From an uncultured SAR86 cluster bacterium (GTDB lineage: Bacteria > Pseudomonadota > Gammaproteobacteria > Magnimaribacterales > D2472): a stretch of 64,000 nucleotides of DNA. The stretch covers positions 1 to 64,000 of the forward strand of contig CABZRR010000001.1 in assembly GCA_902528215.1 (NCBI GenBank). Reading direction: 5' to 3'. The notes beneath the pieces are model-generated. The model was not told the DNA's origin. It ran no database searches and saw nothing but the letters and a program-made list of their open reading frames with translations. The translations under genes were made by a program, and so were the position numbers. Positions 52,590 through 62,902 of the stretch are shown here, piece by piece. The stretch's first letter is position 1. Every line of letters begins with the position of its first letter.

Positions 52590-53570
52590 ATGTCAAAATA
52601 CAAAACATATGAATACATCTGGCTTGATGGTTATCAACCAGAGCCGTTCATGAGAAGCAAAGTTAAAGCAACAGATTCGGATACTCCTCCTGATTGGTCT
52701 TTTGACGGCTCATCAACACAACAAGCTGAAGGTGGAAGCTCAGATTGCCTTCTTCTTCCAGTTCAAACTTATGAAAATCCAAATGGCCATGATTTAGTTA
52801 TGACCCAAGTTCAAGCAGCTGATCATACTGCTCACCCCTCCAATTTTAGGGCAGCAGCTGCCGAGGTTGTAACAGATGACTGGTGGTTTGGATTTGAACA
52901 GGAATTTTTCTTTACTGACCCTGAAACAGGCGAACCTCTTGGATGGGAAAATGGAGAGCCTAGAGCACAAGGAGAATTTTATTGTGGTGTAGGAGCCGGA
53001 AATGTTGTTGGCAGAGAAATTTCTGATCATCATCTTCAGGCTTGTCTTGATTTAGGAATCACACTTACAGGAACAAATGCAGAAGTTGCTCTCGGTCAAT
53101 GGGAATATCAATGTTTTGGTACTGGAATTAAAGCAGCGGATGACCTATGGATTAGTAGATATCTTCTTTACAAAGTTGCAGAAGAGTATGGCGTTGGTGT
53201 AAACATTCATCCAAAACCAAAAACTGGTGATTGGAATGGTTCCGGAATGCACACCAATTTTTCTAACGAAGAAATGAGATCAAAAGGCTCGGAAGAATTG
53301 TTTTCGTCATTGTGCGACAAACTTGGTGAAGTTCATGAAGAAGGAATTGCTGCCTATGGCTCTGACAATGATATGAGATTGACAGGTCTTCATGAAACTC
53401 AAAGCATTGATCAATTCTCATATGGAGTAAGCGATAGAGGAGCTAGTATAAGAATCCCAGTATATACAGTAGAGCATAACTGGAATGGTTATTTAGAGGA
53501 TAGAAGGCCTGCTTCAAATGCAGATCCATATAAAATTTTAGCCCACATTGTTGGAACTCTTACTAAATAG
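52590..53570 (+). CDS. glnII: Glutamine synthetase, type II (GSII, eukaryote/rhizobial GlnII-like)
   Basis: YEYIWLDGYQP; WSFDGSSTQQAEGGSSDCLL; WFGFEQEFFF; NAEVALGQWEYQ; WNGSGMHTNFS; LTGLHET; GVSDRGASIRIP; YLEDRRPASNADPY; 326 aa. Confidence 0.95.
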   Translation: MSKYKTYEYIWLDGYQPEPFMRSKVKATDSDTPPDWSFDGSSTQQAEGGSSDCLLLPVQTYENPNGHDLVMTQVQAADHTAHPSNFRAAAAEVVTDDWWFGFEQEFFFTDPETGEPLGWENGEPRAQGEFYCGVGAGNVVGREISDHHLQACLDLGITLTGTNAEVALGQWEYQCFGTGIKAADDLWISRYLLYKVAEEYGVGVNIHPKPKTGDWNGSGMHTNFSNEEMRSKGSEELFSSLCDKLGEVHEEGIAAYGSDNDMRLTGLHETQSIDQFSYGVSDRGASIRIPVYTVEHNWNGYLEDRRPASNADPYKILAHIVGTLTK

Positions 53571-53648: not shown

Positions 53649-54737
53649 ATGAATTTTTCTAATTTTGAAGCATTTGATAATTTAAATACTGAAATTATTA
53701 TCTTAGATGGAAATAATTTTGACTTATTGTGGATGAATGAAGCTGCAAAAGCCGCACATTGGATTGATGATTCATCCAAACTTAGTGGTAAAAAAATTTC
53801 ATCATTACTGGATAATCAAACAAAGCATCAAATTGATCAAATTCTTCAAAAAACAAAAAAGAAATCTGGATCGGTTACAAGAAGAGATTTTGAGGTTCTT
53901 TATCAGTCTGGCAACTCAAGAACAGTTGATCTCACAATATCCTTCTCAGACAAAAAAAATCTTGTATTTATTGAAGCAGTTAATATTGATAACCTAAATA
54001 AAATTATTGATTCTACAAGAAATTTTTCAACTCAAAAAATCGCTGCAGGTTTAGCTAGAACTCTGGCACATGAGGTAAAAAATCCTTTATCGGGTATTAA
54101 AGGAAGCGCTCAAATTCTAAAATCTAAATACGAAGATGATTTTTCAAAAAAGTTTTTAAAAATCATTGAAGAGGAGACTGATAGGCTTAACGAGATTGTT
54201 ACCAAAATATTAACTCCTGCAAAAAAACCAACTTTTGAATATTTTAATCTCCATGAATCTTTGCAGCGAGTATTAGCATTAAGCACTGCTGAATCTCAAG
54301 AAAATTTAATAATTGAAAGAGACTATGATCCAAGCATCCCCGAAATTTATGGAGATAAAAATTTATTTATTCAAGCCCTTATTAATATAACCCAAAATGC
54401 TATTCATGCCTGTTCAAACTTTGCAGAGGAACCTTGTCTTCAAATTCAAACAAAAGTTGCATACCGACAACCAATCAATGGAACTGTTCACAAAACACTA
54501 GCTGAAATTATTGTAAGAGATAATGGGCCTGGAGTAAGCTCAGAAATTAAAGATCAAATCTTCTTTCCAATGATATCAGGTAAAGAAAATGGATCAGGAA
54601 TTGGCCTTTCAATCTCTCAAGACATTGTAAGGATTCACGGAGGTGCAATATCTTTTGATCGTAAGGATAATCAAACAATATTTTCGATTTTAATACCTAT
54701 TTCTAGCAACAACATTAATGGAGCTAAAAGTGCCTAA
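53649..54737 (+). CDS. ntrB: Nitrogen regulation sensor histidine kinase NtrB
   Basis: PAS-like N-terminus; H-box LARTLAHEVKNPLSGIKGSAQIL; G-boxes RDNGPGV, GSGIGLSI; adjacent to ntrC. Confidence 0.93.
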   Translation: MNFSNFEAFDNLNTEIIILDGNNFDLLWMNEAAKAAHWIDDSSKLSGKKISSLLDNQTKHQIDQILQKTKKKSGSVTRRDFEVLYQSGNSRTVDLTISFSDKKNLVFIEAVNIDNLNKIIDSTRNFSTQKIAAGLARTLAHEVKNPLSGIKGSAQILKSKYEDDFSKKFLKIIEEETDRLNEIVTKILTPAKKPTFEYFNLHESLQRVLALSTAESQENLIIERDYDPSIPEIYGDKNLFIQALINITQNAIHACSNFAEEPCLQIQTKVAYRQPINGTVHKTLAEIIVRDNGPGVSSEIKDQIFFPMISGKENGSGIGLSISQDIVRIHGGAISFDRKDNQTIFSILIPISSNNINGAKSA

Positions 54738-56106
54738 AATTTGGATAGCCGATGATGATGAAGCTATTCGTATAGTGCTCGAAGAAGGTCTGAAAAGTGA
54801 TGGTCTTGAAATAAAGACATTTTCTGACGGCCAATCATTAATAGATAACTTAAATATAGATAAACCAGATCTTATTATTTCAGATATAAAAATGCCTGGA
54901 ATGCACGGCTATGATCTTTTAAAGCACATAAAAAATAATTATGAAAAACTACCAGTGATAATTATGACTGCTTTTACAGATATGCAAGCCGCAATTGATT
55001 CCTACGGAGGTGGTGCTTTCGAATATATTCCTAAACCTTTTGATTTGGAGGAAGCTATTGTTACTGTGCAAAAAGCTCTCGAAGAACATAAAGAACCGAA
55101 AACAAAAAAAGTTTCTAAATCAGAAATCATTGGTTCGGCACCTTCCATGCAAATTGTTTTTAGATCCATAGGTAAACTTGCAAACACCAACGCTACTGTT
55201 TTAATACAAGGTGAGTCTGGAACAGGGAAAGAATTAGTTTCTAAATCATTACACAAAAATAGCCCAAGGCATGATATGCCATTCATAGCATTAAACATGG
55301 CAGATATTCCGAAGGAGCTGATTGAATCAGAATTATTTGGTCATGAAAAAGGAGCTTTTACTGGTGCAGTAGAACAAAGAATAGGTAGGTTTGAGCAAGC
55401 AAATGGTGGGACTCTTTTCCTTGACGAAATTGGAGACATGCCCCTTGAAACTCAAACACGTTTATTAAGAGTCTTATCTAACAAGGAATTTTTTAGAGTT
55501 GGTGGTGACAAGCCCATTAAGGTAGATGTTCGAATCTTAGCGGCAACACATCAAAGTCTAGAATCATTAGTTGCCTCTGGCACATTTAGAGAAGATCTCT
55601 ATTACAGATTAAATGTTATTAGAATTGATGTGCCGCCATTAAGACAAAGAAAAGAAGATATTGGCGACCTATCCTCTGCTTTCTTAAAAAGACATGCAGA
55701 TTCATTAATGGATGATCAAAAAGTACTTTCGAAAGAAGCCCTTCTTGCTTTCAAGCAATATAATTGGCCAGGAAACGTTAGACAATTGGAAAATACATGT
55801 TATTGGATTGCCCTCATGGCGCCTACTCAAAACGTAAATTTAGAGGATCTACCTGCTGAAATTAAAAATAATGATCTGCCTGCTGAAATTGAAAATGGAA
55901 ATTGGCAATCAGGACTGTCTAATTGGCTTGGTGAGATTTATCAAAGCAACTCAGAGAATATGCTTCAAATTATTGAACCGGAATTGGATAAAGTAATCAT
56001 TGATTTTGCCTTAAAAAAAACAGGTGGAAAAAAACAAGATGCTGCTAAAGTCTTAGGCATTGGTAGAAATACTCTCTCAAAAAAAATAAAGGCTCAAAAA
56101 GCTTAA
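54718..56106 (+). CDS. ntrC: Nitrogen regulation response regulator NtrC (sigma54 activator; GTG at 54730 is an alternative start)
   Basis: Receiver DLIISDIKMPG; GESGTGKE; ELFGHEKGAFTGA; C-terminal Fis-type HTH. Confidence 0.95.
   Translation: MELKVPKIWIADDDEAIRIVLEEGLKSDGLEIKTFSDGQSLIDNLNIDKPDLIISDIKMPGMHGYDLLKHIKNNYEKLPVIIMTAFTDMQAAIDSYGGGAFEYIPKPFDLEEAIVTVQKALEEHKEPKTKKVSKSEIIGSAPSMQIVFRSIGKLANTNATVLIQGESGTGKELVSKSLHKNSPRHDMPFIALNMADIPKELIESELFGHEKGAFTGAVEQRIGRFEQANGGTLFLDEIGDMPLETQTRLLRVLSNKEFFRVGGDKPIKVDVRILAATHQSLESLVASGTFREDLYYRLNVIRIDVPPLRQRKEDIGDLSSAFLKRHADSLMDDQKVLSKEALLAFKQYNWPGNVRQLENTCYWIALMAPTQNVNLEDLPAEIKNNDLPAEIENGNWQSGLSNWLGEIYQSNSENMLQIIEPELDKVIIDFALKKTGGKKQDAAKVLGIGRNTLSKKIKAQKA
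55846..55899 (+). repeat. 27-bp in-frame tandem duplication in ntrC linker (DLPAEIKNN-DLPAEIENG)
   Basis: gatctacctgctgaaattaaaaataat / gatctgcctgctgaaattgaaaatgga. Confidence 0.85.
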
Positions 56107-60087: not shown

Positions 60088-60119
60088 TAAAAAAGGAAGG
60101 TAATAACCTTCCTTTTTTT
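60088..60119. terminator. Strong (bidirectional-type) intrinsic terminator downstream of the DUF4278 gene
   Basis: AAAAAAGGAAGGT-AATA-ACCTTCCTTTTTTT. Confidence 0.85.
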
Positions 60120-60133
60120 AACTTAAATATAAG

Positions 60134-60304
60134 TTATGCTGACCAGCTTACACCGCGATAAATACCGCTTGATGGTTTAGCTGACTTGCTTAGTTTTAAA
60201 GCATTATATTTAGCACCTCTATAATTCAATACTTTATCAACAGCTGAGCTGTGATTAGTATTGTTTTGGCGAGTTACTTTAATGCCTCTGTAGTACGAAG
60301 TCAT
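60134..60304 (-). CDS. 56-aa DUF4278-like YRG-repeat protein (start revised to MTSYYRG at 60304)
   Basis: MTSYYRGIKVTRQNNTNHSSAVDKVLNYRGAKYNALKLSKSAKPSSGIYRGVSWSA*: three YRG motifs; strong SD GGAGG 5 nt before ATG. Confidence 0.85.
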   Translation of the reverse strand: MTSYYRGIKVTRQNNTNHSSAVDKVLNYRGAKYNALKLSKSAKPSSGIYRGVSWSA

Positions 60305-60366
60305 ATTAGCCTCCAGTTTTCGTCGATTAAAATAATATATCTTTCGATATACACCAATTAACAACG

Positions 60367-60413
60367 CGTTCCTTCAGTATCATTACCTACTTCCGTCTCT
60401 TTCGAGATGAACG
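60367..60413 (-). promoter_or_regulatory. Glutamine riboswitch aptamer 2 (proximal to the gene)
   Basis: RNA CGUUCAUCUCGAAAGAGACGGAAGUAGGUAAUGAUACUGAAGGAACG; P1 CGUUC/GAACG, P2 UCUC-GAAA-GAGA, P3 GGUA-AUGA-UACU, conserved GACGGAAGUAG and GAAGGAACG. Confidence 0.88.
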
Positions 60414-60419
60414 ATAATG

Positions 60420-60474
60420 CGTTCCTTCGTCTTGCGACTACTTCCGTCCTAATTTGAACAAACTAGGATGAACG
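60420..60474 (-). promoter_or_regulatory. Glutamine riboswitch aptamer 1 (promoter-proximal)
   Basis: RNA CGUUCAUCCUAGUUUGUUCAAAUUAGGACGGAAGUAGUCGCAAGACGAAGGAACG; same P1 and core, different but base-paired P2 (UCCUAGUUU/AAAUUAGGA) and P3 (GUC-GCAA-GAC). Confidence 0.88.
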
Positions 60475-60559
60475 AAATACATATATTAAATAATTTTAAA
60501 AAAAATTACAAAATTGTAGATAAAATTTAAACATAGTTATTTTTCTCTAACATTATTTG

Positions 60560-62902
60560 CTAATATGAAAGCTTATAGGGATATCCGTGAAAAACTATCT
60601 GATTAATTCCTGCTGCAAATGCATTGCCAGCCAACCTTTCATAATCTTCAATCTTCAGCCTATTATAATTAAAGTCTATTTTGATAAATGACTCTGAACT
60701 AACAATCTTTTTATTTGCAATATTTCCAGCTGAGGATGCTAATTTTAAGAAATCAAAACTTCCTCCTGCAAAAAGACCTTCACTTTCAGGAATATCGGCA
60801 ACGGCATATGCATCCAAATAATTACCATATCCTCCATGCGCTTGAAGCCTTAACTTAATATTTAAAGAGTTAGTCCAGTTTTTTATTGGTAGGAGAAACT
60901 CAGTCATAAAAAGCTTTTCTCTTGTATGCAGATAATCCTCATATACCCTCTCTCTAAGGTTATATTCTGACTGATATAAAAATTCTTCACCGAATATTGC
61001 ATACAGGTACTTCGATTCTCCATTCTTTTTAAAAATTAAAGGCAGGTATGGACCAATACTATAGCCATGCATCTCCTCAAAGGTTTTAAAAAACTCTTTT
61101 GACCAGGGTAGCTCGCCAATTAGCTCAAAACTATCAATAAAAAAATTTCTTGGCTTATAAGGTTTTATTTTTTCTATCCAATTATTTCCAAGCTTCTTGA
61201 TATACTCCTCAACACCTCCTTTATTTAAATGATCTAACACTAAAGATTCATCCCATGCTCCTTTATATGCAGAACCCAGCGTATTATGAGAAACATTATT
61301 CTGATATATAAAAAACAATTTGTATTTCCCTGCAGGGACATCTAATTTCAATCCATCTTCATTCAAGGAATGGCTTACATCTAGAAACTCAGTCAAAATG
61401 TCTTTTTTTTGTGATTGTTTAACTTTTGCCAGAGTAACTTTCATTAAATCAATATCTTGATCAAACTTACCTATTGTTTTATTTACAATGAAATTTGTTT
61501 TATTTATATAAGAGGGCTCTTGAATTTTAGGAGGTTTAATTGTTCCGTTTACAGGCCCGATGATCTCTAACTCAGATTTTATTAGTTGCTTTGAGGGAAA
61601 ATCTTTAATGAATGGGCCTCCGCTCGACCAACCACTTCCAAGAGTAAGATCTACATTCAATTTTAAAGCATTAGCCTGTGAAAATAGATATTTAAGATTA
61701 TCAAAAAAGGGTTGTTCTCCCACTTGAAAGATTTCATTTTTATTTTGCATTAAATATTTTTTTGGCATTCCAATTGTCAATGTTTGTAGCTCAATCGAAG
61801 AAAACTTAGCTTTTTTAAATTTCTTCAGCTCTGTTTGAATCTGAGCTTTTTCTACTGCATTTCCAGGCCACCACCATCTTAAAATTGGAAAGTATCTATC
61901 ATCTGGATTAATCCACTCATTAGCTTGAAAACAATTCTTATTATTTGAATCTGTTCTTTGGCTAAGAATTAATATTTTTGCTTTGCCTGCTCCTATTGAC
62001 ATTGTTATATTTTCAAATGAATTTAGGTTAGAAAATTCATCTATGCTTCCGTCAAAAGGATCAAGAACCTTTATGTCCTTAAATGATTTATTTAAGTAAA
62101 AATTTTTTTTCTGTGCCTCATAAGAATCATTATAAAAATAAATAATTTTATGTGAGCCACATGACCTAGTGGCAGATCTAAAGTAATTTTTGTCTTTATC
62201 TAATAAAGTTATAAATGGATCAATATTTAGATCCTTTAAAGTATTAGCCAGTTCTTGGATATCATTGAGTTGAAACACGAGTTTAGAAATCTTTTCTACA
62301 TATCTAACGATTTCTGCATCTCTAATTTTAAAATTAGAAAGTCCAGTTGCGCGTTGCGGAAAATCACCTATGAATATTACTTTCAGCCCTGCATCTGCAA
62401 GGGCTAGAATCTTTCTCAAAATGCTTGGAGATGTATGCTCTAAATTAGTCACAAGCAAAGCTTGATATGAGCCATTTCCAATATTTAATTTATTCCCAGA
62501 AATATTTGACGACAAAAGATTCTTCTTACTTATCCTGTCATAGGTATAACCATTTAAATTAATATGTTTACTAATTTCAGACTCTTGATAATTTGAATTT
62601 AGTCTTCGAAACTGAAAATTCGGTTCATCTGGCCATGCTCCATCTTGAAGAAACCATGCAATATTTACTTCAGGTGCTCCTAGCTGCATAACGTACGACA
62701 TCCTGGCAAAGCTTGTATTTAACTCGTTTATATTTTGCCAAATGCTTATTTGATTTAAATTGCTTGTTAAAGCGATTGGGCCTGCTGTATAGGTTTGACC
62801 AAAGAATGAGTTAGGAAAAGGATACCAATTTTTATCCTCTGAGCTACAGCTGATAAATAAGATAAGTGAAATACAGAACGAAATTTTTTTTAATTTATCC
62901 AA
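60560..62902 (-). CDS. GH106-like (alpha-L-rhamnosidase family) glycoside hydrolase lipoprotein, apparent permuted domain order
   Basis: Lipobox LILFISCSS; RWWWPGNAVEKAQIQTELKKFKKAKFSSIELQ; LTLGSGWSSGGPFI; FFIDSFELIGELPWSKEFFKTFEEMHGYSIGPYLP; NAFAAGINQIVFHGYPY. Confidence 0.7.
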   Translation of the reverse strand: MDKLKKISFCISLILFISCSSEDKNWYPFPNSFFGQTYTAGPIALTSNLNQISIWQNINELNTSFARMSYVMQLGAPEVNIAWFLQDGAWPDEPNFQFRRLNSNYQESEISKHINLNGYTYDRISKKNLLSSNISGNKLNIGNGSYQALLVTNLEHTSPSILRKILALADAGLKVIFIGDFPQRATGLSNFKIRDAEIVRYVEKISKLVFQLNDIQELANTLKDLNIDPFITLLDKDKNYFRSATRSCGSHKIIYFYNDSYEAQKKNFYLNKSFKDIKVLDPFDGSIDEFSNLNSFENITMSIGAGKAKILILSQRTDSNNKNCFQANEWINPDDRYFPILRWWWPGNAVEKAQIQTELKKFKKAKFSSIELQTLTIGMPKKYLMQNKNEIFQVGEQPFFDNLKYLFSQANALKLNVDLTLGSGWSSGGPFIKDFPSKQLIKSELEIIGPVNGTIKPPKIQEPSYINKTNFIVNKTIGKFDQDIDLMKVTLAKVKQSQKKDILTEFLDVSHSLNEDGLKLDVPAGKYKLFFIYQNNVSHNTLGSAYKGAWDESLVLDHLNKGGVEEYIKKLGNNWIEKIKPYKPRNFFIDSFELIGELPWSKEFFKTFEEMHGYSIGPYLPLIFKKNGESKYLYAIFGEEFLYQSEYNLRERVYEDYLHTREKLFMTEFLLPIKNWTNSLNIKLRLQAHGGYGNYLDAYAVADIPESEGLFAGGSFDFLKLASSAGNIANKKIVSSESFIKIDFNYNRLKIEDYERLAGNAFAAGINQIVFHGYPYKLSY

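Follow-up and report, generated by a model that had tools for sequence, protein, structure and literature searches.

Why would a bacterium of the SAR86 cluster keep a protein of only 56 amino acids (aa) behind two consecutive glutamine aptamers? The locus that raises this question is a minus-strand cassette at 60088-60476 of the window, by which we mean the whole stretch of 64,000 nucleotides (nt) analyzed here (positions 1-64,000 of contig CABZRR010000001.1, assembly GCA_902528215.1), and its source is an uncultured SAR86 cluster bacterium, a heterotrophic gammaproteobacterium. The cassette consists of two abutting aptamers, a linker hairpin, a GGAGG motif, an open reading frame (ORF) with three Tyr-Arg-Gly (YRG) units, and a terminator. 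We suggest that it is a self-contained regulator gene of SAR86 with a predicted response to glutamine. In the more specific form of this reading, on which we are evenly divided, it acts as an ON switch whose microprotein damps type II glutamine synthetase (GSII) in the first place or PII in the second; we treat action on PII or on a nitrogen enzyme as a hypothesis, and its support as correlative. The parts of the cassette are as follows.

60477-60540, minus strand: AT-rich region, presumed promoter, with a sigma-70-like match at 60520-60493 (9/12, chance level)
60416-60476, minus strand: glutamine aptamer 1, type 1 (RF01739), ordinary short P3 (cmscan 62.4 bits, E 2.1e-11)
60363-60415, minus strand: glutamine aptamer 2, type 1 (RF01739), abutting aptamer 1 (cmscan 59.9 bits, E 1e-10)
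60335-60352, minus strand: linker hairpin GUAUAUC-GAAA-GAUAUAU, presumed part of the expression platform, recurring at the equivalent site in most other cassettes
60310-60314, minus strand: Shine-Dalgarno sequence GGAGG in the context CGAAAACUGGAGG, which is kept among SAR86 cassettes
60134-60304, minus strand: ORF of the 56-aa DUF4278/YRG microprotein, ATG at 60304 (Pfam PF14105; dN/dS 0.13 in same-genus copies)
60088-60119, minus strand: intrinsic terminator, hairpin and U-tract (-16.6 kcal/mol, z -4.7)

An initial annotation had proposed these elements as a monocistronic minus-strand unit in a heterotroph, and had assigned the peptide to DUF4278; all of this is borne out, the promoter being the one weak element. 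Both aptamers belong to the RF01739 class by consensus and three-helix fold and exceed its gathering score of 35, a family match from which we take glutamine binding and control of expression to be putative functions of the pair. Across cassettes, including that of the window, the linker hairpin takes the form of 28 distinct stems that mostly covary, and none of 200 shuffled sequences was as stable as the terminator (60119-60088). Sigma-70-like matches near the cassette are not enriched (5 found, 7.0 expected from shuffles). The protein, with its units YYRGIKV, NYRGAKY and IYRGVSW, matches the DUF4278 profile over positions 1-56 of 57 (30.2 bits against a cut-off of 25.3, E 6.1e-7), and selection on the ORF is purifying, with mean dN / mean dS between 0.13 and 0.51 across three relative groups. 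A DUF4278-like ORF is also present at L043 (genome G433, another gammaproteobacterial family), where an upstream glutamine aptamer is not recognisable.

Single-cell SAR86 genomes and one complete genome also carry the cassette, which shows that it is not a chimera and does not stand alone. Both the cassette and its downstream neighbour recur in G004 and in AG-453-K07 (G021, CACKEY010000001), a single-cell genome of the window's own genus, the neighbour being retained in same-genus copies, and the cassette is found again in the complete genome CP097973 (G032). A scan of genome contigs with a pattern of aptamer 3' strand, GGAGG and Tyr-Arg-Gly codons returned 45 loci, of which more than 30 bear a SAR86 label, with single cells as the source of many; the remainder are Halieaceae or other Gammaproteobacteria/Proteobacteria, three cyanobacteria and one chance match. 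In the SAR86 family f3 the cassette is near-universal and single-copy. Tandem ordinary aptamers precede the gene in the window, G004, G021 and G032, while nearly all other SAR86 cassettes, as well as two further gammaproteobacterial copies from the pattern scan (L085, L088), have a single aptamer whose P3 helix is replaced by an insert of ~75 nt.

A known counterpart suggests what such a cassette may do. The cyanobacterial factor IF17 (GifB), which inactivates glutamine synthetase, has DUF4278 as its N-terminal domain, and so has Prochlorococcus PMM1846 (PMC6316151); the gifB riboswitch is of the same type-1 aptamer class, and the three cyanobacterial loci of our pattern scan are gifB-like. 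The likeness has its limits, however: the cyanobacterial products that we found are 94-100 aa long and include a C-terminal part, whereas the SAR86 proteins (52-56 aa) are the domain only, that of the window stopping at 56 aa where DUF4278 stops; moreover, SAR86 aptamers are often tandem or nested, and their host is a GSII heterotroph without GlnE. Short stand-alone DUF4278 proteins under glutamine control are likewise known from Prochlorococcus and Synechococcus, PMM1846 being one example, where the switch is of the Downstream-peptide, or type-2, kind (RF01704; PMC6316151, PMC2864571). The initial annotation had invoked these RNAs, but RF01704 has no match in the window at its cut-off of 33 and reaches only 16.5-17.3 bits on related loci; the aptamers are of type 1 (glnA). 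It had also counted PirA among DUF4278 proteins, a link that the literature consulted does not support. PirA is likewise a small nitrogen-regulated protein, but its description never uses the term DUF4278 and reports it absent from picocyanobacteria (PMC8092223). Nor is acquisition from picocyanobacteria, also suggested there, shown by our searches, in which the close relatives came from SAR86, Halieaceae and contigs of T4-like phages. Tandem glutamine aptamers are already known (157 doublets, PMC9481103), and the window has such a doublet. A literature search, incomplete in coverage and thus no proof of absence, found no paper on SAR86 glutamine riboswitches, on YRG cargo in such phages, or on the nested P3.

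In Synechocystis, type-1 aptamers activate gifB with glutamine (PMC6316151). By analogy with these cyanobacterial switches, we propose that glutamine binding would alter access to the start site of the SAR86 gene, most likely turning translation ON at high glutamine, and that the tandem pair may sharpen the response. The microprotein would then bind a component of nitrogen assimilation and damp it, the likeliest target being GSII and the second PII. In SAR86 relatives and T4-like marine phages the same cargo stands behind a single aptamer with the nested P3 module.

Such a regulator would act in a lineage whose nitrogen control lacks GlnE. The window itself carries three genes of nitrogen control.

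52590-53570, plus strand: glnII, type II glutamine synthetase (NCBIfam GlnII 351 bits, under the cut-off of 500; Pfam Gln-synt_C)
53649-54737, plus strand: ntrB (glnL), sensor kinase (best NCBIfam match NR(II), 231.7 bits, just below the cut-off of 240)
54718-56106, plus strand: ntrC (glnG), response regulator (NCBIfam TIGR01818, 639 bits, cut-off 558.6)

This glnII is the only glutamine synthetase match in the window genome (and its single TIGR00653 hit). Canonical type I glutamine synthetase was found in 2 of 100 relatives, GSII being the enzyme of nearly all, and GlnE in none of 150, with the E. coli control positive in the same search. PII is present in 115 of 150 relatives, and the window genome has two PII genes, a point that the initial annotation had left to be checked under the names glnB/glnK. 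Family f4 lacks PII, as does almost the whole of genus g7, and in most of the genomes examined from these PII-less lineages an aptamer lies directly upstream of the glutamine synthetase gene. GlnD is absent from all eight family f3 genomes sampled, and the f4 and g7 genomes of the sample lack it too, so that f3 has PII without GlnD while these f4 and g7 genomes have neither; f2 and the greater part of f1 do have GlnD. It is present in G004 and G021, and was not found in the window genome, which is 81% complete. In cells without the adenylyltransferase GlnE, the YRG microprotein would thus supply feedback. A regulator of GSII or PII is the reading that we favour: in cyanobacteria, a glutamine synthetase inactivating factor under the same type of riboswitch begins with DUF4278; GlnE is absent, GSII is near-universal, and glutamine synthetase is under an aptamer in PII-less lineages; and the YRG gene is restricted to genomes with PII, while family f3 lacks GlnD. 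Cassettes of glutamine aptamer and YRG gene recur as a regulatory choice across SAR86, which is an abundant clade of surface-ocean heterotrophs without GlnE and, in one family, also without GlnD.

The insert that replaces P3 in most cassettes is a genuine RNA fold. Over ~75 nt it runs from P3a through GAAAACCUC, hairpin P4, AGCnAGUA, hairpin P5 and GAACGAGACCGA to P3a', and it is found at loci L034-L041 and L044-L088 (SAR86, Halieaceae) and L119-L267 (viral contigs), with the cores GAAAACCU / AGCnAGUA / GAACGAGACCGA. Among ~90 unique insert sequences, P3a occurs as 42 distinct strand pairs, and its pairing is much stronger with true than with permuted partners (-163 versus -80, standard deviation 10; 0 of 10000 permutations, which ignore ancestry). 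While the helices vary freely, the unpaired cores hardly change across dozens of distinct sequences (GAAAACCU in 88 of 89, GAGACCGA in all), and two core positions change in concert: AGCUAAGUA goes with GAACAGAG in 14 of 14 cases and AGCGAGUA with GAAAGAG in 3 of 3. A covariance model of the insert, R1 (97.7% of cells paired, 7 pairs with two-sided changes), has a single match in each of 40 among 199 relatives (most of family f3, genus g14 of f2, and genera g2/g5 of f1), with the YRG peptide downstream in all 30 loci inspected; over a sample of 321 genomes of the class it matched one SAR86 genome and nothing else. The nested variant is absent from the window, where both aptamers have the ordinary short P3, and R1 has no match in G000. 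Rfam searches of the insert, with E limits of 5 and 2, found no other overlapping family; the nested P3 lies outside the Rfam model and was not found in the tandem-riboswitch survey by term search (PMC9481103). Its compact size, dozens of distinct sequences and covarying helices make it a tangible candidate for a novel sensing RNA. In four Halieaceae-type loci (L054, L064, L069, L072) and another gammaproteobacterial one (L060), P3 is extended to about the same length by a different sequence. An AGG-AAAA-CCU hairpin predicted by RNAalifold from the bacterial set was dropped, as the phage sequences give it no support.

A search with the insert motif led to viral contigs, one of them 99 kb long with T4-like gp23, gp22, gp21 and gp20 (assigned by reading the ORFs), and a wider pattern to more than 120 viral stretches, so that the phage connection proposed by the initial annotation has proved widespread. 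Among 82 viral stretches that were parsed, the insert is present in nearly all with a readable P3, and an ordinary short P3 in four. When viral contigs were scanned for the insert core only, with a pattern that contains no glutamine-aptamer sequences, 80 stretches were recovered: the aptamer 5' side is present in 80 of 80, the 3' side in 79 (the remaining one ends at the contig edge), and the YRG microprotein lies downstream in all 76 intact stretches. Phage and SAR86 peptides alike score near or above the DUF4278 cut-off. By their phage genes the closest isolates are Melnitz, Mosig and HTVC008M, and the YRG cassette was not found in any of the three. Among isolate phages in general, tblastn with six peptides gave nothing convincing, and blastn with one leader gave nothing. 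Ordinary type-1 aptamers in such T4-like marine phages are already known (PMC9004378); Mosig (L272) and Melnitz (L271) have one each, but before small unrelated ORFs, and HTVC008M has none. Because RF01739 scores the nested phage copies below its cut-off in a fast scan, and above it with laxer filters, such aptamers may have been overlooked. A YRG gene and an unusual aptamer common to SAR86 relatives and many marine viruses point to a shared, putative control of nitrogen use.

How firmly, then, can the cassette be read as a regulator of GSII or PII? It is hardly conceivable that the ORF arose by chance behind the remnant of a riboswitch, or that cyanobacterial DNA was joined to the contig during assembly: the ORF has only 56 codons and its promoter-like matches are at chance level, but recurrence of the cassette with its neighbour in G004 and G021, and of the cassette in CP097973, refutes this view, and a DUF4278 score above cut-off and a dN/dS of 0.13 speak against it as well. 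A closer competitor would have the microprotein target PII (GlnB/GlnK) rather than glutamine synthetase, competing with the normal partners of PII. Glutamine would then adjust PII signalling by way of how much microprotein is present, either where cells lack GlnD-type uridylylation or as a further level of control. All 29 YRG genomes in the PII sample have PII and no PII-less genome has YRG, family f3 resembles cyanobacteria in having PII without GlnD, and the window genome has its two PII genes; but DUF4278 has no structural or sequence link to PII binders, PirA, the small protein known to bind PII, is not assigned to DUF4278 in its description (PMC8092223), and most PII genomes are without YRG, so we consider PII as the sole target rather unlikely. 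Our preferred reading, with GSII first and PII second, has its own difficulties. The DUF4278 part of IF17 is reported dispensable for function in Synechocystis (PMC6316151), and inhibition of glutamine synthetase by DUF4278 alone is therefore not established. AlphaFold places YRG at every turn of three short beta-hairpins, but at a predicted template modelling score (pTM) of 0.22, from which no overall fold or interface can be read, and no solved structure matches the microprotein by sequence. In folding calculations of Shine-Dalgarno accessibility forcing P1 leaves the window unchanged, and a consistent preference for ON is confined to the Halieaceae leaders. The gene is dispensable in the window's genus, because only 3 of 26 genomes carry it. 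Finally, the correlations with PII, GlnD and GlnE are lineage-level, represent few independent events, and are confounded by shared ancestry.

Phages complicate the argument further, since the YRG protein might be primarily a phage-derived or phage-associated factor that reprograms the host during infection, with SAR86 copies domesticated and without a dedicated role in host nitrogen homeostasis. Copies in phages abound; 85 of 141 contigs have gp23, uvsW or gp20 no more than 4 kb from the cassette, which often follows the T4-like capsid gene directly, at 100-250 bp from gp23; phage and bacterial copies interleave in the peptide tree (9 changes, at least 2 of them forced, although 55 columns give little resolution); and the gene is patchy in the window's genus. 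A cargo beside the major capsid gene of T4-like phages could be a riboswitch-controlled host-takeover gene. Its near-universal, single-copy presence in family f3 under purifying selection points instead to a host function, and cyanobacterial chromosomes carry DUF4278 under glutamine control (PMC6316151), so a purely phage origin of its role seems to us improbable. The nested P3 admits two interpretations of its own. It may merely stabilise the glutamine aptamer, with no second ligand and with the same function as the tandem pair of the window, a realistic possibility that we nevertheless place below even: the module was never seen outside a glutamine aptamer in the viral scan (80 of 80 inside), and in front of the YRG gene each genome has a tandem or a nested leader, never both, but near-invariant cores among variable helices resemble RNAs that bind a ligand or protein, and ordinary aptamers, including those of four phage contigs, manage without the insert. 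Alternatively, and only tentatively, the module could be a second sensor, of a metabolite or a protein, inside the glutamine aptamer, forming a single-RNA switch with two inputs that is common to SAR86 and T4-like marine phages, sets the dose of YRG acting on GSII or PII, and has been exchanged repeatedly between phage and host.

YRG is one of several cargoes of glutamine aptamers in these genomes. Aptamers before glutamine synthetase, gltB and PII genes are already known from environmental DNA (PMC2864571), and in SAR86 relatives (L003-L011, L014, L017, L022) ordinary ones are likewise found before the gene for GSII, before gltB and before a porin of the TorF type (TIGR02001). Most aptamer-bearing genomes of the window's genus have one before a protein of 71 aa (MTKWEYKIVDHSN..., weak DUF4177), after which comes a membrane protein (L015, L016, L021, L023, L024, L026-L031), an arrangement not seen at the window cassette. 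Tandem glutamine aptamers at L012 and L019 precede proteins of 52-54 aa that end in VFFPYYL and have no convincing Pfam match, a second microprotein cargo. In the window, a lipoprotein-like gene of the rhamnosidase family GH106 (60560-62902) adjoins the cassette, and a similar protein also adjoins the cassette of G032 (L025), on the opposite side.
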